From positions 1-21,793 of the IMG/VR virus record IMGVR_UViG_3300031841_002333: 21,793 nt of DNA; one strand, written 5' to 3'. Numbering within the stretch: position 1 is the stretch's first letter; each line of letters opens with the position of its first letter. Below the pieces are notes generated by a model. That model saw only the letters and a program-made list of their open reading frames with translations. It did no database searches and had not been told where the DNA came from. This stretch comes from a virus. Position numbers and translations under genes: made by a program. This document shows, piece by piece, positions 1,926-11,471 of the stretch.

Positions 1926-4151
1926 TTATGTTATTATTTTTGAATTAATTCCTTGGTTATTATATCTTTTAAAACCAAGAGGCACTACGTTTATTTGTTT
2001 TTCGGCAACAGGTCTATATTTGTTTCTGTTGCAAGCCATTATTGCTAAACCAGAGCTAATCGAAGCGTCGTGTTTAGTTCTACTGTTTATATTAAACGTA
2101 GCCCAATCTTCTAATGTTTCTTGAAAGTACATATTACCGTATGAATCATTTATAATACCTACGTGGTTTTCTATATAATATTCTATAGCGGCAGCGTGAG
2201 CTTGTTTAATATCTTCGCTTGAGTTAGGTATTCCACCTATTTCTTTTTCAGACGTTGATAACTTATGATAAACTTTATCAGGTCTGTTCATTGAAAACTG
2301 TCTATAACCTCTACGTTTTAAATAATACAATAATCGAGGTTTATTGTTTTCTGCAAGTATAGGCATACCATAAAATACTAATGCCATTAAAACATCTTCA
2401 AAAAATATTTCAGCTGTTTGTGGTCTTGCTATATATTCTAAAAAAAACATATTAGGCGGAGCATCTTCCATGCTAAACTTTGTTAATCCATGTAAAGATC
2501 CTTTAGAACCTCTACCGTCAACAGTACCTGATATGTCGTAACTATCACACCCAAACGCGCCTATGTGCTCGTTACCTGGGTATTTAACGTTGTTTTTTAA
2601 TATAACTTTATTCTGCAAATGCAGAGGCGGCACCCATGATAATAAAAATCTACCGCTGTTGTTTGGAGTAAACGTTACTATAGAATCTTTTATACCGTTG
2701 CTCCACTGAAAACTACCTCTAGTTAAAACACCAGAGTATTTTAAATCTTCATTGTAATCTATTTGCTCGTATATTTTTGCTAGGTTAAATAAAGATTCTT
2801 TTGCTTCGTCTCTAAACGCGTGTTTTTCTGTGCGAGGAAACTGTCTATAATATTCGTTTAAAGAGTCTTGATCGTTCTTTAAACCTTCAACTTCGTTTTC
2901 CCAATACTCTATTACACCTACTTCAATTTCAGATCCGTCAATACCTTTGATCGGCGTTTCCGGCGTTTCGAAAACAGGTAATCCATAAGTATCAATGTAT
3001 CCTTCGTAGTTCCATTCCATAGGTATGAACAAACTATATAGTCCTGAGCTAGTCTGTCCATTGCGGTTTCTTTTGGTAACATCTGATTCATAATAAAGTT
3101 TTTTAAAGTTTTCGCCACCTTTATCTAGTGAGTTTGATGTTGAACCCATCATACACTTACCTACGATTCTAGACCCTAGTCTAAGTGTTGTTTTTGTTAC
3201 ACGCCAGTTATTTAAAATATTATCCGGACGCTCCCACTTACCTGATTCATCGTGGGCAAGGAGCTTAAGTTTTTCACCGTCATATGAGTTGTCACCTGTG
3301 TTTTTCCAGTCGATCGTTGTATCAAGTCCTTCGATTTCTTCTGTTTCAATACCTTGATCAAGTTTTCTTCTTGTAAGTTTTGATGCTGGTACTCTGTACG
3401 CAAGTTCTGTTTTCGGTCTATCCATACCATCTTGTATGGGTTTGAAAAAGAACGGGTAGTTAACTGATATGGGTACAACTTTATCGGTGAACATTTTTTT
3501 TGCGTCTGCACCTGACTTTGATAGTATTCCAAAACGTGAGTCGGAAGATATAGTCGCTTGATTAACAAGTTCTCCTGATGCCATAAAGGAAAAACCAGAC
3601 CGTCTATTTTTGAGGTAGCACATACCATAACATCGCTGGTCTGCTTTACATGCTTCCCAGAAGATAAAGAAAAGCCTATTTGATTCTCTATAATCTGCGG
3701 CTCCAACATCAATTTTACTCCACTGCAGGTACATGTAATGAGAGCCAGTAACATAAGTAGGATTACCTTTGTTGTAAAACCAAAAACCTTTATCACGTCT
3801 TTCAAACTCTTGGTCGATAAAATCATACCACTGCTCTTTAAAATATTCTGGCTTTTGATTAAATTCAAAAACGCTTTTTATTCTATCTAACTCTTTAGGA
3901 TAATCAAGTTTTTGCCAAAACTGATCTTCTTTTTTATTAGATCTTTTGTAACTATTTTCTACATCAGGTAAAGCTATTTTAAGATTTTGTATTTCTATAA
4001 CTTCACCTATTTTACCGGTTTTACTTATAACTACTACGTCATGTTCTTTGTTGTAGCCATAATCCCATTTTTTATACCTATTGTTTTTCTTTATTACACT
4101 AGGTTTTATGTGATCAGTTAATGTATTTACAAGCGTTTGTTGATAACTCAT
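1926..4151 (-). CDS. terL: Terminase large subunit (packaging ATPase/nuclease)
   Basis: 741 aa, longer than many TerL proteins (about 450-650 aa), with an N-terminal extension of roughly 120 residues. TerL drives DNA into the prohead by ATP hydrolysis and cuts concatemers. A degenerate Walker A-like KNRRSGFS lies at about 181-188. Walker B with the catalytic glutamate is KLLAHDESGKW at about 297-306 (D301, E302). A coupling-motif-like MMGSTSNS is at about 334-341. The RNase-H-like nuclease half supplies IGAFGCDSYD (D536), an acidic residue after a hydrophobic strand in GMPILAENN (E601), and the terminal KHDASISSGLA (D695). The ATG overlaps the upstream gene's stop as ATGA (4 bases) and the portal gene follows. 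A classical P-loop GKT/S is absent, which is known for many phage terminases of the RRxGxS type. Confidence 0.93.
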   Translation of the reverse strand: MSYQQTLVNTLTDHIKPSVIKKNNRYKKWDYGYNKEHDVVVISKTGKIGEVIEIQNLKIALPDVENSYKRSNKKEDQFWQKLDYPKELDRIKSVFEFNQKPEYFKEQWYDFIDQEFERRDKGFWFYNKGNPTYVTGSHYMYLQWSKIDVGAADYRESNRLFFIFWEACKADQRCYGMCYLKNRRSGFSFMASGELVNQATISSDSRFGILSKSGADAKKMFTDKVVPISVNYPFFFKPIQDGMDRPKTELAYRVPASKLTRRKLDQGIETEEIEGLDTTIDWKNTGDNSYDGEKLKLLAHDESGKWERPDNILNNWRVTKTTLRLGSRIVGKCMMGSTSNSLDKGGENFKKLYYESDVTKRNRNGQTSSGLYSLFIPMEWNYEGYIDTYGLPVFETPETPIKGIDGSEIEVGVIEYWENEVEGLKNDQDSLNEYYRQFPRTEKHAFRDEAKESLFNLAKIYEQIDYNEDLKYSGVLTRGSFQWSNGIKDSIVTFTPNNSGRFLLSWVPPLHLQNKVILKNNVKYPGNEHIGAFGCDSYDISGTVDGRGSKGSLHGLTKFSMEDAPPNMFFLEYIARPQTAEIFFEDVLMALVFYGMPILAENNKPRLLYYLKRRGYRQFSMNRPDKVYHKLSTSEKEIGGIPNSSEDIKQAHAAAIEYYIENHVGIINDSYGNMYFQETLEDWATFNINSRTKHDASISSGLAIMACNRNKYRPVAEKQINVVPLGFKRYNNQGINSKIIT

Positions 4152-4423
4152 TTTGATCTACCTTCAGCAAAGCCCTTAAACGACTGAGCTTTTGATTCTT
4201 TTTTGTTAGAGTCTAACATAGATCTTTCTTCTTCTATCCTGTTTAATATTTCAAACGCATCAAATATAGCTAGCTTTTTAGTTGCCGCAGCGTTTTTTAA
4301 ACGATCAGCTGACACATCATCTTCAGTGTTAGTGATAATTTTTTCCTCAGCAACTTTAATAAGCTCGTCAACTGCTTTCTGTCCAGCTCGGATTATATTC
4401 TGTTTCGTGTCCTTGACGCTCAT
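4148..4423 (-). CDS. Candidate small terminase subunit
   Basis: 91 aa, charged and probably all-helical, with no membrane segment. It lies directly upstream of terL with a 4-base ATGA overlap, the classical place and size for TerS, the DNA-recognition partner of TerL. Visible features are an amphipathic N-terminal helix (residues about 5-30), a middle helix around ADRLKNAAATKKLAIFDAFE, and a charged, basic tail. I see no clean helix-turn-helix. Its start lies inside the end of the preceding gene, giving a 56-base overlap (4368-4423), which implies translational coupling. The terminase role is an inference from position; the protein could instead be another head-assembly factor. Confidence 0.55.
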   Translation of the reverse strand: MSVKDTKQNIIRAGQKAVDELIKVAEEKIITNTEDDVSADRLKNAAATKKLAIFDAFEILNRIEEERSMLDSNKKESKAQSFKGFAEGRSK

Positions 4424-4973
4424 ACTTAATAACTATATCATTTGATTTCATACAATACAAGAGTTGTTTATCTATAACAAACTCAAACTCACTTAAAGGT
4501 TTAAACCCTACGTAGTCCTCTGGGTTAATCTGGATAGCTTCTAACGAACTATTACCATATTTTAGTATACCACGTAAGGTTTTAAGTTTATCACCTCTTA
4601 TATTTTGTTTTTCTAAAACAGGTTTTACAAAACAATAATCACTATTAGCATGCCACTTGTCGTCTTTGTGGTACATGTATATTTGATCATCGGTTGCAAA
4701 ATACATATTATCTTTAAAATACTTAGAGCTATTTTTTTCTTTGCCACGTATATCGTACCAACGTCTAAATAAATTAAAGTGAACTATAACTTTATCACCT
4801 TTTTTAATAGGTGTTTCGTAAGCAGCTGGGACTTCAACAACTTCTGCTAATCTATTAACAAAGTTGTGATCTTCAATACCAGCGTTTACTATTAATATTT
4901 TGTCATCAATATTTATTTCATTGTTGTATCTTTCACCTATAGGCTTAACAATGAATTGAAAAATACTTTTCAT
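4368..4973 (-). CDS. Tandem GroES-like (double Cpn10) protein, candidate second co-chaperonin
   Basis: 201 aa. Two consecutive segments each follow the Cpn10 beta-barrel plan. Segment one (about 6-103) has FIVKP, then LAEVVEVP, IKKGDKVIVHFN and a closing strand near ATDDQIYMYHKD. Segment two (about 113-184) has YCFVKP, LRGILKYGN, INPEDYVGFKP and EFVIDKQLLYCMKSNDIV. The last matches the GroES ending 'id.ee.l.m.esDil' well. In family terms, a GroES subunit is one barrel of about 95 aa, and tandem Cpn10 proteins are known from chloroplasts (Cpn20). The possible mobile loop of segment one (about 30-41) has no clear GG-hydrophobic-triad, and segment two has a short loop. The gene starts one base inside the preceding stop (TAATG) and its last 56 bases overlap the TerS candidate. 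The same genome carries groEL and a normal groES. The fold assignment is my alignment by eye; the co-chaperonin role is inferred. Confidence 0.62.
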   Translation of the reverse strand: MKSIFQFIVKPIGERYNNEINIDDKILIVNAGIEDHNFVNRLAEVVEVPAAYETPIKKGDKVIVHFNLFRRWYDIRGKEKNSSKYFKDNMYFATDDQIYMYHKDDKWHANSDYCFVKPVLEKQNIRGDKLKTLRGILKYGNSSLEAIQINPEDYVGFKPLSEFEFVIDKQLLYCMKSNDIVIKYERQGHETEYNPSWTESS

Positions 4974-5498: not shown

Positions 5499-5897
5499 TT
5501 ACTTATTGTCACTTGATTTTTTACTCTTTTCCCACGTACGACCCACAAAATAAGCACCATACACTGTTATTAATAGTGATTGGAATATAGGTATGTAAGC
5601 TTCGTCAACTTGAAAGCCACCAATGTTGCCATCAAAAAACGCCAACGCTGTAAATATAACAGTAAGATATATCAACACTAGCGGCCTTATGTTTTTAGAT
5701 AAAAATGAATCTGATTGCATATCAAGTTTCCAGCGCTCAGTAATTTGAGTCTGCGCATCTTGATCTGCTTTTTCTAACAACTCTTGAATCTTTTGTTTAG
5801 CAGCTAATCTTTCCTCGTCTGTAGTTGTAAGTTTATCGATTACATTACCTACGTCTTTAATTAAACCGCCAGTTAAAAGACTTAAAAGTTTTTTCAT
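5499..5897 (-). CDS. Holin-like membrane protein (3TM/GTA-holin type)
   Basis: 132 aa. The N-terminal half is a charged amphipathic/coiled segment (about 1-58), followed by the signature-like WKLDMQSDSFLSKNIRPLVL (about 56-75), a hydrophobic span at about 72-88 and a second at about 102-119, then a basic tail. The 'W..D..SDSFLSKNIRPL' block before the first span is characteristic of the 3TM holin family described from gene transfer agents and phages. Such proteins permeabilise the inner membrane to time lysis. No endolysin is recognisable beside it in this window, so lysis is inferred from family resemblance only. It begins one base inside the stop of the 326-aa gene (TAATG). Confidence 0.75.
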   Translation of the reverse strand: MKKLLSLLTGGLIKDVGNVIDKLTTTDEERLAAKQKIQELLEKADQDAQTQITERWKLDMQSDSFLSKNIRPLVLIYLTVIFTALAFFDGNIGGFQVDEAYIPIFQSLLITVYGAYFVGRTWEKSKKSSDNK

Positions 5898-6877
5898 TAT
5901 CTATTCTGATTAAATCTCTCCATGACCTGCGATCTGTAATTTTGTGTACTTGGTCCTGCATATAATGGTTTTATATCTTGATGTCCAGAAGCTTTACCTT
6001 TCTTTTTATGTCTTTTACTTTTGTAAGTAGGCATTTGAGTTGCTAAAAGCTCTTCTTGGCTGTAAGGTGTAAACACTTGATAAGACTCTCTGGCTGGCGT
6101 AATTTCGTTTAAAGCTCTGTTTATAGTCTTGTCTAAAGTATATCTTTGGTCACTTGTTAAATTTTCACCATACGATTCTTTAATATAATCTAAAGCTTGT
6201 TGAGGCGTATAAGCACCGCTACCTACTAAAGCCGCATATTGACCAGCCGCGTTGTACGCTGCACTAGTTTGTTGTGCCTGTTTACTTCCTTGGCTTGTAA
6301 ATGGTAAGCTACTCATGTAATCTTGAGCAAATTGATTACCCATTTTAACAGCATCTATATCAACTAAATCTTTAATACCTTGCTGAATTTGAGCTTGATT
6401 GTATTCATAATCTTGCTGTAGAGCTTGTTGTTGACTAATACTGGTATCGCTAATAGCTCTTTTTTGCGTGTCAATACTAGTTTCACTACCACCACCTTGT
6501 CTTAATTCGTTAAGAGCTACAAGTCTATTTTCTTCTGTTTGCTTAGCCGCTTCATCAGCTCGTTTTTGGTTTATTTCTAAAAACCTTTTATCTTGAGCCC
6601 TTTGCTGTTCTTTAGTTAACGCATTGTAAGCGTCCTTAGCGGCTTGAGACGTATCCACTTGCATTAAGTCAGGAGTAACTACATCATAAACTAACTCATC
6701 GCTAGATGGTGCTGTTTGACTTATAGTTGTTTGACGTTGAGATATAGTAGGTATGTCACTAGCGCTACTATGAGGGTGAACATGCGGTTCTGTCCCTGAC
6801 TGAGAAGCTGAATGAGCAAATGGGTGTTTGCCACCTACAACTCTTTTAACGTTTTGATTTCTTAACTTAAATGCCAT
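5897..6877 (-). CDS. Probable internal virion or scaffold-like protein, Q-rich
   Basis: 326 aa, unrecognised. A basic and histidine-rich N-terminus (MAFKLRNQNVKRVVGGKHPF, then HVHPHSS) is followed by a long hydrophilic Q/A/E-rich helical region (about 75-185). A second helical region comes next, then a lysine-rich patch (KSKRHKKKGK near 287-296) and an arginine-containing tail. No membrane span or catalytic motif is visible. Length, helicity and position before the lysis and packaging genes suit a minor virion or assembly protein. The N-terminal MAFKL is shared with the HELGH protein upstream. The leader AATAAGATATGGCA closely resembles that of the 60-aa gene. Confidence 0.7.
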   Translation of the reverse strand: MAFKLRNQNVKRVVGGKHPFAHSASQSGTEPHVHPHSSASDIPTISQRQTTISQTAPSSDELVYDVVTPDLMQVDTSQAAKDAYNALTKEQQRAQDKRFLEINQKRADEAAKQTEENRLVALNELRQGGGSETSIDTQKRAISDTSISQQQALQQDYEYNQAQIQQGIKDLVDIDAVKMGNQFAQDYMSSLPFTSQGSKQAQQTSAAYNAAGQYAALVGSGAYTPQQALDYIKESYGENLTSDQRYTLDKTINRALNEITPARESYQVFTPYSQEELLATQMPTYKSKRHKKKGKASGHQDIKPLYAGPSTQNYRSQVMERFNQNR

Positions 6878-6883
6878 ATCTTA

Positions 6884-7093
6884 TTATTTATAACCACACC
6901 CTTTTTTAGTCATAGGGTGATTCATATTTATTGCGTGGTCTCCATATTTTTTCATTGGATGCCCCATGTTTATAGGTCCTGTTTCTGCTTCTCCGTATTT
7001 AGATAAACAATGTTTAGACATAAAGGTTCCTTTTTTAGACAAAGGCCCTACATTTCCTTTTTTAGATTGTGTGTCTGGATTAGTGCTTGGCAT
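6884..7093 (-). CDS. Small Lys/Gly/His/Met-rich repeat protein
   Basis: 69 aa, very basic, without predicted hydrophobic core. The C-terminal half holds two near copies of an 11-residue unit, INMGHPMKKYG and INMNHPMTKKG. Related degenerate pieces (GPLSKKG, MSKHCLSKYG) lie before them. Histidine, methionine and cysteine are unusually frequent, so metal binding is possible but unproven. A DNA-associated internal head peptide or a target of the adjacent HELGH protein are other options. A leader of only A and T (TTAAAAATTAAAATT) precedes the ATG. It is part of the run of small proteins between the chaperonin cassette and the holin. Confidence 0.65.
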   Translation of the reverse strand: MPSTNPDTQSKKGNVGPLSKKGTFMSKHCLSKYGEAETGPINMGHPMKKYGDHAINMNHPMTKKGCGYK

Positions 7094-7104
7094 AATTTTA
7101 ATTT

Positions 7105-7428
7105 TTAAGTTATTCTTTCTGCAAATTTATTTGCATAATCTTCCCATGGTAGTTTATCGCTACCCTCTTTCATATTTTTCCTTGAATATGTTTTTCCTTT
7201 GTAGTATACGTTGTTGTCATCGTAGTTCAATGCACCGCTTTTAATTTGCTGCATGTGGCCTAACTCGTGAGCTAATACTTCTTTGTATTGTATAGGATCT
7301 TTAACGTCCTTGCTCATTAGTATACTACCATTGTTTAAGGCTTTACCTAATACTCCTTCTTCTAAATCTACGTGATATAAAGGCGTGTTGTCTACTGCGT
7401 AGGGTGGATTATTAAGTTTAAAAGCCAT
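7105..7428 (-). CDS. Zincin-like (HELGH) putative metallopeptidase
   Basis: 107 aa. The segment YKEVLAHELGHMQQIKSG (about 48-65) contains HExxH, the zinc-binding and catalytic helix of zincin peptidases: two histidines and the catalytic glutamate at about 54-58. A downstream LPWEDYANKFAERI (about 93-106) supplies a candidate third ligand or supporting helix, as in small SprT-like or phage zincins. No signal peptide is visible. Its compact size and its place among virion-type small genes suggest maturation or processing of a virion protein, or a structural zincin, rather than wall lysis. It begins with MAFKL like the 326-aa protein. The start overlaps the previous stop by one base (TAATG). Confidence 0.75.
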   Translation of the reverse strand: MAFKLNNPPYAVDNTPLYHVDLEEGVLGKALNNGSILMSKDVKDPIQYKEVLAHELGHMQQIKSGALNYDDNNVYYKGKTYSRKNMKEGSDKLPWEDYANKFAERIT

Positions 7429-7586
7429 TATTTATTGTTATAAGGAAACATTTCGTTTAGTCTATCTCTTCTAGCGCCACATCCACATGGTATATTTAAA
7501 CCATCAGAAACCTTGTCTACAATTGTTTTGACTCCAGTTGCTGTTGTGAATTTTTCTATCGTGTCGCCTAAACCTCTTGATTTCAT
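7428..7586 (-). CDS. Small CGCG-motif phage protein (52 aa)
   Basis: A short gene found by reading the complement: ATG at 7586, TAA at 7430-7428. It begins MKSRGLGDTIEKFTTATGVK, continues with a short helix, then IPCGCGARRDRLNEMFPY and ends NNK. The start is supported by a TAATTATG junction with the previous gene (2-base gap) and the end by a TAATG junction with the HELGH gene, so it fills an otherwise empty slot exactly. The GLGD(T)IEKFT...CGCG.RRD.LN opening and closing resemble a small protein I recognise from many phages. The two cysteines could bind metal, but function is unknown. Confidence 0.85.
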   Translation of the reverse strand: MKSRGLGDTIEKFTTATGVKTIVDKVSDGLNIPCGCGARRDRLNEMFPYNNK

Positions 7587-8386: not shown

Positions 8387-8569
8387 TTATTTTCCTTCAG
8401 CTTTCATTGTTATAGGTCCAGCTTTATACACAGGCATATCCTTAGATACTTCCATACCTGTAATACCTGAGCTACTACCTTTTCCTTTTGGAAAACCAGT
8501 TAAATCTAATGGTCCGTCCCATACTGCGTTTTCACCTACAGCTCCGTGTTTTAGTGGTTGCTTTGCCAT
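8387..8569 (-). CDS. Small glycine/lysine-rich protein
   Basis: 60 aa, unrecognised. It has turn-rich segments GPLDLTGFPKGKGSSSG and a C-terminal YKAGPITMKAEGK. The GPI(T/N)M short motif recurs in the 69-aa repeat protein (GPINM), so the two may share a binding habit. The leader TAATAGATATGGCA resembles that of the 326-aa gene. It is packed 5 bases after the previous stop and 1 base before the next start, supporting a real gene despite its size. Confidence 0.65.
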   Translation of the reverse strand: MAKQPLKHGAVGENAVWDGPLDLTGFPKGKGSSSGITGMEVSKDMPVYKAGPITMKAEGK

Positions 8570-8574
8570 ATCTA

Positions 8575-9234
8575 TTAATTAAATGTGTTTCTTAAAAAAT
8601 TACCAACTCTAGTTCCACCACCTCTTTCTTGTTTCCTAGCATCTCTTCGTGCTATTCTAGCGGCTGTATTTCTAGTTCTTTCTTGCAGTCTAAGGCTTTG
8701 TGGTGTTTCACCTACTAAGCTAGTATCAGTGCTAACGTCAGTAGTCGAGTCTGTGCTTGCTGTTGTGTCGTCAGAACCTTGTGCTATTTGGTTTCCATAG
8801 TTTTGGAAAATTTGTGCCATGTCCATTTGTGCGTGGGCAGTAGGCTCTAATCTATTATACTGTCTATTGAATGTAGGTGTAGACCCGTAGTTTAAAGGAT
8901 CACCTTCAGACGTTTCAGTATAACCCATTTTTTTCTGAACATTAGTAGGCAATTTATTTATACCTTCTTTTGGATCTTCAGGTAGTCTTTTATTTAATGC
9001 GTGCTTTTCTAGCTTAGCTAAACCAGGTTGCATATTCATTACATGCTGGCGTTGTTGTTGTGTTCCAAACACCTGATCAGCCACACCTAATGCAGTAGGA
9101 CTCATTCTAGTCATTGCGCCAGAATAAGGATCTTGCATAGCATTTACGTCCATTTGTCTAGGTCCTCCAAATACAGCATTCATACCTACTTGACCAGTGT
9201 TACCAACAAATGGTAGTCCATCTTTTTTATACAT
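8575..9234 (-). CDS. Hypothetical virion-type protein, low complexity
   Basis: 219 aa, unrecognised. The N-terminal part (1-70) is rich in G, M, Q and N; a middle helical/lysine section (about 70-105) is followed by a Tyr/Asn/Gln segment; then a Ser/Thr/Asp low-complexity linker lies near 153-173 (TTASTDSTTDVSTDT). The tail is a strongly basic helix (ARIARRDARKQERGGG) ending GNFLRNTFN. No membrane span or catalytic motif is visible. The basic tail could contact DNA or another virion protein. It follows the winged-helix gene by 2 bases (TAGTTATG). Confidence 0.65.
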   Translation of the reverse strand: MYKKDGLPFVGNTGQVGMNAVFGGPRQMDVNAMQDPYSGAMTRMSPTALGVADQVFGTQQQRQHVMNMQPGLAKLEKHALNKRLPEDPKEGINKLPTNVQKKMGYTETSEGDPLNYGSTPTFNRQYNRLEPTAHAQMDMAQIFQNYGNQIAQGSDDTTASTDSTTDVSTDTSLVGETPQSLRLQERTRNTAARIARRDARKQERGGGTRVGNFLRNTFN

Positions 9235-9236
9235 AA

Positions 9237-9680
9237 CTATCTTTGTTTATCTTTGTTTACGTTATTTATAGAAGTAATAAGAACTTTGTCCATGTATGTT
9301 TTACCTTTCATTATCTTATTTCTTCGTTCACTAGTAGGTATATCCTCTTCTCCTAGCATTATTCTATATACTCTTTGTATAAGCTGTTTGCATTTAAAAG
9401 AAACTTTGTATATGTTATACTTTTGTGTTGTTCTGTTTCTTTCTCTCCACACAACTATCCAGCCTTCTTTTAAAAGTCTATTCCATCTTCTATTGTCCCA
9501 GCTGTAAGAATAACTGCCATCTTCAAAATCTTTTTTAGTAAAAAGATCTATGCAGTCTAAATATATTAAAAGCTCTAAGTCAGCGTCGTTTAAATTATTA
9601 TTACGACATGCCCACTTACGTATAATACGATAGTGCTTTAATATATTTAACCGCTTAATGTCACTAGCCTCTATTCTCAT
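9237..9680 (-). CDS. Winged helix-turn-helix DNA-binding protein
   Basis: 147 aa. The fold suggests a MarR-like winged helix: helix 1 about 10-26, helix 2 in LNDADLELLIYLDCIDLF (about 30-47), a recognition-type helix SWDNRRWNRLLKEGWI (about 60-75), and a wing strand pair VVWRERNRTTQKYNIYKVS (about 76-94), then a C-terminal helix and a basic tail. MarR-like proteins bind DNA as regulators, but this lacks an obvious effector pocket and may instead be a late-gene regulator or a packaging factor. It overlaps the end of groES by ATGA, so its translation is tied to the chaperonin genes. Confidence 0.7.
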   Translation of the reverse strand: MRIEASDIKRLNILKHYRIIRKWACRNNNLNDADLELLIYLDCIDLFTKKDFEDGSYSYSWDNRRWNRLLKEGWIVVWRERNRTTQKYNIYKVSFKCKQLIQRVYRIMLGEEDIPTSERRNKIMKGKTYMDKVLITSINNVNKDKQR

Positions 9681-9937
9681 AACAACACAACAACATCTTG
9701 TAATTTTATAACTGTATATTGTTCGTTGTTAATTTCTATTTTGTGACCACTATGTCTGTCATAATATATAGCATCACCTTGCTTTATAACCTCTATTTGA
9801 TCACTAACAGAAACTACATTAGCTTCTGTATATCTTATATCTTCTCTGTCTTTAACTGACAGTACTAAACCACCTTCTGTTTTTTTATTAGATACTGGTT
9901 TAGGTTTTACGATTATATTATTGCCCACTGCCTTCAT
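9677..9937 (-). CDS. groES: Co-chaperonin GroES (Cpn10)
   Basis: 86 aa (bacterial GroES about 95). It is the heptameric lid that closes the Cpn60 chamber during a folding cycle. Visible: NNIIVKP at 6-12, a mobile loop with KKTEGGLVLS (the GG plus hydrophobic triad that contacts GroEL), the ANVVSV strand, KQGDAIYYD, and the closing EINNEQYTVIKLQDVVVLL. It starts inside groEL, with the ATG 20 bases before the groEL stop, and ends with an ATGA overlap to the winged-helix gene. The order groEL then groES is the reverse of the bacterial operon. All loop residues needed for chaperonin docking appear present, so a functional lid for the phage GroEL is likely. Confidence 0.93.
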   Translation of the reverse strand: MKAVGNNIIVKPKPVSNKKTEGGLVLSVKDREDIRYTEANVVSVSDQIEVIKQGDAIYYDRHSGHKIEINNEQYTVIKLQDVVVLL

Positions 9938-11471
9938 TAATTCTAAGATTATTGATTACACAATCAGTTGACAATATTGTTGTAGCTACAGACGCTGCGT
10001 TTAGCAAAGCGCTTTTAGTTACAAGCAGAGGATCTATAATACCAGACTTAATCATATTTACCATATTTCCTGTAACCACATTTAATCCTCTGCCTTTAAC
10101 TTTAGGTAGCTCGTACTCAACTATACCAGCGTTTTCTAATATAGTTTTAAATGGAGCTTTAATTGCTTCTAGCAAAACCTCTTCGCCTTTTGACTTTGGT
10201 TTTATAAAGCTAGATGCGTTTAAAAGAGCTATACCACCGCCAGGTACTATACCATCTTTTATTGCAGCTTTTGTAGCACAGATAGCATCTTCAACCCTAT
10301 CTTTCTTTTCTTTTAATTCTACTTCAGAGTTAGCACCTACTTTTACAATTGCTACTTTAGCTGATAGCATTGCTAATCTTTTTTCGTATTTATTTTTAGT
10401 AGCAGCTGATGAGGCGTTTTTGATTTTATCTTTTATATCCTCTATTAAATCGTCTAGTTCACTAGAAGATTTATCTACTTGTAAAATTGTTTCTGTTTGG
10501 TTAGAAACAGATTTAACACACTCGCCTAAATGTTCCGGCTGTATTAAATCCATATCATCGCCTAAGTCTTCATTTATAACAGTAGCACCAGTAAGCATTG
10601 ATAGATCTTGTAGAACTTCTTTCTTACTTACACCATATATAGGCGCGTCTATTATATTTACTTTTATATTGCCTTTTAGCTTATTCATAGCTAAGGCATT
10701 TAAAACTTGTTGCTCAGCATCACCAATTATAAGTAGTGATCTGTTGTTTTTAATAACATACTCTAACACATTTTGTATCTTACGTATGTTTGGTATTAAA
10801 GACTCTACAATTAAAACTAAAGGGTTTTCTAGCTCAGCTGTACCTTTTAGTTTGTCAGTTATAAACGAATCGTTTTTAAAACCTTTATAGTATTGAACAC
10901 CATCAACTACTTCGCAAAAAGTTTCTGGTTGATCATTTACCTCCATCATAACAACACCTGTATTATCAACAGCTCTAAAAGCATCTGCAATAATACCACC
11001 TATTTGTTTATCATTGTTAGCTGATATGGTAGCTACTTGATCAATCATTTCACCCACTACAGGTGTACTATTTTTTTCTAAATAACTTATAACTTTATCA
11101 ACACCAGAGTTAATACCTTCTTTAAGTTCTCTAGTGTTAACGTCTTTTTTATAAGAGTTTTTTAAGAGTGCGTGTGCTAGCACTGTAGCTGTTGTCGTTC
11201 CATCGCCAGCTTCTTGCACAGTTTGCCTAGCCGCTTGTTTTAAAAGCGTCGCACCCATGTTTTCTACAGGATCTAATAGTATAATGCTATCAGCCACTGT
11301 AACTCCATCTTTTGTTATAACGGGTTGGCCCGCACCGTCCTCTAGTATAACACACTTGCCGCTAGCTCCTAATGTGGAGCTAACAGCTTTAGTGAGATTT
11401 TCTATACCTTTAAATACTTTGTCTTTAGCGTCAATGCCAAAGTTTAAGTTCTTAACTATTGCGTCAGACAT
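9918..11471 (-). CDS. groEL: Chaperonin GroEL (Cpn60), phage type
   Basis: 517 aa, slightly short of the 548 of Escherichia coli. It forms the ATP-driven double-ring folding chamber. Equatorial ATP-site motifs are intact: VITKDGVTVAD (D55), EAGDGTTTATVLA (D90), and DRVEDAICATKAA (D395, matching the catalytic Asp398), then IVPGGGIALL. Apical-domain motifs include YYKGFKNDSFITD and KVNIIDAPIYG; the latter replaces the usual KAPGFGDRRK. The C-terminal flexible GGM repeats are absent; it ends TDCVINNLRINEGSGQ. Phage-encoded GroELs are known from large Pseudomonas phages such as EL and from marine viromes. Its ATG follows a 29-base gap with the AATTAAATCAAAT leader. Likely clients are virion proteins; that is inference. 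Confidence 0.95.
   Translation of the reverse strand: MSDAIVKNLNFGIDAKDKVFKGIENLTKAVSSTLGASGKCVILEDGAGQPVITKDGVTVADSIILLDPVENMGATLLKQAARQTVQEAGDGTTTATVLAHALLKNSYKKDVNTRELKEGINSGVDKVISYLEKNSTPVVGEMIDQVATISANNDKQIGGIIADAFRAVDNTGVVMMEVNDQPETFCEVVDGVQYYKGFKNDSFITDKLKGTAELENPLVLIVESLIPNIRKIQNVLEYVIKNNRSLLIIGDAEQQVLNALAMNKLKGNIKVNIIDAPIYGVSKKEVLQDLSMLTGATVINEDLGDDMDLIQPEHLGECVKSVSNQTETILQVDKSSSELDDLIEDIKDKIKNASSAATKNKYEKRLAMLSAKVAIVKVGANSEVELKEKKDRVEDAICATKAAIKDGIVPGGGIALLNASSFIKPKSKGEEVLLEAIKAPFKTILENAGIVEYELPKVKGRGLNVVTGNMVNMIKSGIIDPLLVTKSALLNAASVATTILSTDCVINNLRINEGSGQ

Follow-up and report, generated by a model that had tools for sequence, protein, structure and literature searches.

The window analysed here is a virus record of 21,793 bases, in which the gene for a 107-aa zincin-like protein lies between genes for a chaperonin and a terminase. 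The features are as follows.

1926-4151, minus strand: terminase large subunit (TerL), phrog_6681.
4368-4973, minus strand: GroES-like protein of 201 aa, phrog_13932.
5499-5897, minus strand: holin, phrog_3427, with Pfam GTA_holin_3TM above cut-off.
5897-6877, minus strand: 326-aa protein with the same MAFKL start as the zincin-like protein, a candidate partner or substrate.
6884-7093, minus strand: basic protein of 69 aa in which xP[LIM] motifs recur, the next gene downstream of the zincin gene.
7105-7428, minus strand: zincin-like protein of gluzincin type, 107 aa, ATG start (from motif, conservation, AlphaFold2 model and fold search).
7111-7149, minus strand: helix of residues 94-106 (PWEDYANKFAERI), with E96 (codon 7141-7143) as putative third ligand (from conservation and model).
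7255-7269, minus strand: HELGH, codons 54-58, two putative zinc ligands and the presumed catalytic Glu, kept in 128/128 profile matches.
7375-7428, minus strand: N-terminal tag MAFKLNNPPYAVDNTPLY, residues 1-18, of a type common to apparently non-homologous neighbours.
7428-7586, minus strand: 52-aa conserved gene (IPCGC...LNEMFPY) directly upstream of the zincin gene, with one base of overlap.
9918-11471, minus strand: GroEL-like chaperonin, recognised from its translation; the gene at the same place in MW202828 (L103) is annotated groeL.

The window TerL shares 63% identity with its counterpart in the uncultured podovirus ctfjg026 and, among the matches listed, 30-46% with those of Flavobacterium, Cellulophaga and Tenacibaculum phages, and an 86-aa GroES-like ORF adjoins the GroEL-sized chaperonin. 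Judged by its genes, the record represents part of a phage that bears GroEL and whose TerL is kin to those of Cellulophaga and Flavobacterium phages. In PMC5332604, GroEL homologues are described in 36 genomes of phi38:1-related "group 2" marine Bacteroidetes viruses, a group that the record appears to fit. Both GroES-like genes of this phage are on the minus strand, the 201-aa one being the one near TerL and present in 92 loci, and the 86-aa one lying at 9677-9937. The 52-aa IPCGC...LNEMFPY protein has homologues in ctfjg026, in the Nonlabens phages P12024L/S and in Microcystis phage Mel-JY01. Small basic proteins at 6884-7093 and 8387-8569 (minus strand) are rich in xP[LIM]xxK-like motifs (GPLSKKG, HPMKKYG, SPLK), as are their relatives, and in one locus (L176) the product of a neighbouring gene has tandem MRSPMEM-like repeats. 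The preliminary description spoke of small basic neighbours, which holds for the 69-, 88-, 178-, 219-, 60- and 52-aa products (pI 9.1-10.6) and not for the 326-aa product (pI 7.8). In MW202828, an unannotated gap upstream of the M15 peptidase contains an ORF of 150 aa (9046-9498) whose hydrophobic segments are holin-like. The IMG/VR record G006 (129,537 bases) has one M15 gene at 31,910 and another at 94,161, and its two holin genes are separated by about 63 kb; these pairs suggest a contig of about two genome lengths.

The same description had drawn attention to a HELGH at residues 54-58 of the 107-aa protein, and the motif is indeed found there, in the minus-strand ORF at 7105-7428. Among the 40 script-called window ORFs of at least 60 aa, HExxH is present in this protein only, and residue shuffles of its sequence produced HExxH in 0.35% of 100,000 trials. 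A first scan of IMG/VR yielded 230 encoded relatives in this one viral collection, and 80 of them were retained. A search of 50,697 phage records, by contrast, turned up no close homologue from an isolate. A profile built from 54 distinct sequences and run against all loci gathered gave 128 matches, each with HExxH, representing 90 distinct domain sequences. In these matches, aligned to the profile, H54, E55, H58, Y69, R83, W95, E96 and A99 are each kept in 128/128, and H54, E55, H58 and E96 are kept in 90/90 distinct domains. Because these four residues are conserved in every match, the HELGH is not a chance occurrence. The profile was drawn from relatives having these residues, so very degenerate relatives were possibly overlooked. 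After dereplication at 82% identity, 36 domains retain ten invariant columns; in this set the HExxH and WE..A columns were demanded by the selection pattern, the independent count being the 128/128 profile matches.

AlphaFold2 modelled the protein with a mean pLDDT of 85.9 from 30 sequences and of 92.7 from 36 more diverse ones; the N-terminus had a pLDDT of 48 in the first model and 78 in the second, and hence N-terminal disorder is not claimed. The HELGH lies inside helix 45-64, and the W/E-bearing helix expected downstream of it is present as helix 94-106, which opens with W95-E96 (PWE at 94-96). The model thus shows both gluzincin features, the HExxH within a helix and a Glu (E96) in a downstream helix. 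A fold search, proposed earlier as a check, returned IrrE (3dte) as the top VIA-align match (Z 7.6, 83 residues, 3.2 A), followed by PprI, ArdC (Z 5.6) and SPRTN (Z 5.6) and, lower, by Wss1 and the minigluzincins abylysin (Z 4.7) and selecase, structures that we take to be of the zincin class. The nearest solved structures are zincins, although all with Z below 8, a value that a common arrangement can give; we find the fold convincing despite these scores, because the top of the list consists almost entirely of zincins and the motif is invariant. With Foldseek alone, no PDB entry matched at E <= 0.001, and nothing relevant came from searching PDB sequences with either the single protein or the profile. 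The zincin reading is supported by the invariant HExxH, the distal Glu, the confident model and the nearest structures, the metal site being a predicted one. Taken as such a prediction, the 107-aa protein is very probably a real metalloprotease. Some zincin folds act as binding domains, and the small size of the protein would suit a fold that serves for binding or adhesion and not for catalysis. However, E55, the catalytic Glu, is invariant in all 128 matches and would be needless for a mere scaffold; an inactive, purely structural zincin therefore looks less likely from the sequences, and we give this explanation very little weight.

Neither Pfam nor NCBIfam gave anything above cut-off for the 107-aa protein. 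Peptidase M78 (PF06114) reached E 0.016 and 15.4 bits against a cut-off of 22, which is below family level, and matched 12 of 30 relatives at E up to 0.1 (best 0.0052). PHROGs matches were to phrog_10499 (E 6e-7) and to phrog_87, "metallo-protease" (E 9e-5). Moreover, phrog_10499 and phrog_16532 were each matched by 32 of the 36 family members (best E 2e-11 and 4e-11), but both are without listed function and the window protein aligns over only 62 and 55 residues, respectively. Remote homologues occur in Ochrobactrum phage OC, Caulobacter phage Cr30 and Methylophilales phage Melnitz, where the surrounding regions are uninformative on function. By tblastn the zincin was unmatched in ctfjg026 and in the Cellulophaga and Flavobacterium relatives. 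A description of the family was not found in the available portions of PMC5332604, PMC5512222, PMC7198788, PMC10172136 and PMC9026906 or in a wider literature search, which leaves its absence from print unproven. Judged by these comparisons, what is new is a zincin member outside Pfam cut-offs, with no close isolate homologue in the collection searched.

With IrrE/PprI and ImmA (Peptidase M78) the protein shares the HExxH helix and the Glu in a later helix, and IrrE is its best structural match; IrrE, however, has further domains, for which a 107-aa zincin has no room, and the context here is a late phage block. According to PMC5512222, the zincin MPTase domains of polyvalent proteins have two His and the Glu of HExxH and a Glu in the next helix, and the suggestion there is that they work ahead of packaging, within the head or within the host. 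This active-site layout is common to the 107-aa protein, which is likewise the product of a phage gene. Polyvalent proteins are multi-domain, whereas the zincin here is mostly solo at about 105 aa, and the window protein is a single 107-aa domain. Similarly, P1 DdrB, also from a phage, contains a zincin domain and is considered to be self-processing ahead of packaging (PMC5512222), but it is large and multi-domain while the protease here is a separate small gene. By analogy with the polyvalent proteins, whose proposed sites of action include the host, a packaged zincin may be injected and cleave a host defence or regulatory protein. The presence of IrrE and ArdC among the closest folds and the position of the gene among variable small proteins are in line with such an effector. 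Nevertheless, that position is equally compatible with assembly roles, delivery is itself a proposal, and an HExxH is already present in a giant late protein of these phages, so that we consider an effector rather unlikely. The giant late-strand proteins measure 1,258-3,011 aa, one in each of G006, G007, G008, G020 and G032 (loci L194-L212), and contain an internal HEFMH, HEFLH, HELLH, HEVGH or HESTH. The HExxH region of these giants is a candidate polyvalent-type zincin domain on sequence grounds; the zincin profile matched it weakly (probability 25.7, E 7e-4, 31 columns), and no Pfam model matched it at E 0.01.

The zincin gene belongs to a conserved block. In 66 of 81 cases the gene immediately upstream is the 52-aa cysteine gene or an antisense call that overlaps it, and 231/232 neighbours longer than 80 aa are on the zincin strand. 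Viewed from TerL, the zincin is found upstream in 19 of the 24 loci that, out of 80 TerL loci, have at least 5 kb of upstream sequence, and in the remaining five other genes take its place. Since it is absent from these five loci and unmatched in ctfjg026 and the cultured relatives, the zincin is dispensable. It is thus common, placed in the late block, yet dispensable. Its location between GroEL and TerL would place it among the virion genes, as had been assumed in the preliminary description.

Being near TerL and portal, the zincin might be a prohead maturation protease that cleaves capsid or scaffold proteins. In other phages prohead maturation is the role of serine proteases, and Peptidase_S78 was absent from 17/17 records examined, in a search confined to this one prohead protease family. 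However, the zincin is missing in 5/24 loci, cultured relatives in which tblastn did not find it assemble without it, and the portal of ctfjg026 is annotated as P22-like, P22 having to our knowledge no such prohead protease. We consider a role in prohead maturation highly unlikely.

The position of the gene also bears on lysis. The next gene downstream belongs to the holin-type cluster for 42 of the 83 zincin genes that have a downstream gene, and a holin-type gene lies at most three genes downstream for 78 of 82. Furthermore, in the TerL relatives the region matching that of the zincin encodes an annotated cell-wall enzyme, namely an M15 peptidase (ctfjg026), a D-alanyl-D-alanine carboxypeptidase (elemoC), a glycosyl hydrolase (phi18:3) or an endolysin (phi38:1). 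The zincin could accordingly be imagined as a peptidoglycan endopeptidase freed by the adjacent holin. However, an M15 peptidase or Amidase_2 was also found in all seven zincin-bearing records above 60 kb (G006, G007, G019, G020, G021, G022 and G032), so the zincin is not needed as the sole lysin, and no peptidoglycan hydrolase match was noticed by fold or sequence among the matches listed. Above 40 kb, one or other of the two enzymes occurred in 12 of 15 records; G031, G038 and G039, which had neither, are shorter and perhaps partial. Glyco_hydro_108 had no match in 25 records, but its control was silent too, hence this result is uninformative. The zincin is probably not the sole endolysin and an accessory lytic role is possible; as an explanation of the gene, we regard lysis as quite unlikely.

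A different kind of evidence comes from the N-terminus, as MAFKL starts both the 107-aa and the 326-aa window proteins, with differing synonymous codons. The first conservation table exaggerates the N-terminus, many loci having been retrieved with the pattern MAFKLNNP. A rescan with residues 28-107 brought in relatives with other starts (MSFKLDNPPY, MGFIMKGAPY, MAKPITNRVK), and the N-terminal motif survived it, less strictly. Among 2,655 called genes of 180 loci, 151 have M[AGST][FY][KRI][LMIQPFS] within the first 25 residues, 99 of them zincins and 52 others. When 2,453 proteins were clustered on residues 16 onward, 17 of the resulting 302 groups had a member starting M[AGST][FY][KRI][LMIQ]. 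Drawing one random member per cluster gave a mean of 11.9 tagged clusters (minimum 9), compared with a mean of 1.46 (maximum 5) in a permutation control of 200 runs in which positions 2-5 were shuffled between proteins. TerL, one of the 17, is probably a coincidence, and "about a dozen" tagged families is an upper estimate, because fast-evolving disordered proteins may be unjoined homologues. In addition, xP-hydrophobic motifs in the first 25 residues were seen in 30/164 proteins of the late strand and 17/158 of the other strand, a weak difference (p = 0.039). The MAFK start was absent from 30 translated proteins (MS-annotated and other small ones) of phi38:1, phi18:3 and elemoC, and the tag is thus without proteomic support.

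Fusions add to this picture. Nine zincins, in nine loci, have C-terminal tails (97-439 aa). These tails gave short matches only, of 20 and 33 residues, to separate proteins; no second domain was recognised in them by eye, and one tail was unmatched by tblastn. The zincin of locus L191 carries a 47-aa N-terminal module resembling the N-terminus of a tagged G008 protein of 135 aa (44% identity over 48 aa, E 6e-8 in the local set), the rest of which occurs in other records behind different N-termini. Exchange of N-terminal modules in this way is consistent with their serving as an address. The sharing of the tag and the fusion pattern make the protein a variant of the known phage zincins. The earlier proposal that the zincin acts on or with neighbouring late proteins is thereby supported indirectly, through the common N-terminus, which includes the 326-aa protein, the C-terminal tails and the L191 module; the 219- and 178-aa proteins showed no special link to the zincin in these data. 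For a link between the zincin and the tagged late proteins we see about even chances.

Several divergent, often basic proteins with a common short N-terminal peptide recall the internal proteins of T4, in which, according to PMC9026906, the first 10 residues (CTS) direct packaging. The T4 CTS is, however, unrelated in sequence to the MAFKL tag and is cut by the serine protease gp21, whereas targeting or cleavage of MAFKL is only proposed. Crassviruses offer another case, with cargo proteins stored in capsid and tail (PMC10172136). The T4 CTS, P1 DdrB, the polyvalent zincins and the crassvirus cargo are models for comparison, homology being shown to none of them.

Our preferred reading, held tentatively and at somewhat less than even confidence, is that a late-made gluzincin protease either trims the tagged head proteins or is carried along with them. 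In this proposal the ORF would encode a minimal gluzincin metalloprotease, with HExxH and a Glu in the next helix, that belongs to a clade of marine Bacteroidetes-type podoviruses and would be expressed late from the GroEL-TerL block. The MAFKL...P peptide would be a common address for the zincin and for a group of small proteins, mostly basic and fast-evolving, and may bring them all to one site, most probably the head under assembly. At that site the protease would trim some of the tagged proteins during assembly, or be packaged and delivered alongside them. A bolder form, which we regard as distinctly unlikely, is that these phages have a packaging code of their own, M[AGS][FY]K[LMI]...P[LFYI], by which a variable assortment of small proteins is directed into the head in the manner of the T4 CTS, and that a tagged mini-zincin, and not a serine protease, enters and trims them, as an independently evolved metalloprotease counterpart of the T4 CTS and gp21.

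If the tag is a packaging signal, sequence alone would predict virion cargo among the many small genes of a widespread marine phage group, and the tag would be a simple means of loading proteins into these heads. Furthermore, if tagged proteins are trimmed by the zincin, the virion would have a minimal metalloprotease, one open to assay as a 107-aa protein.
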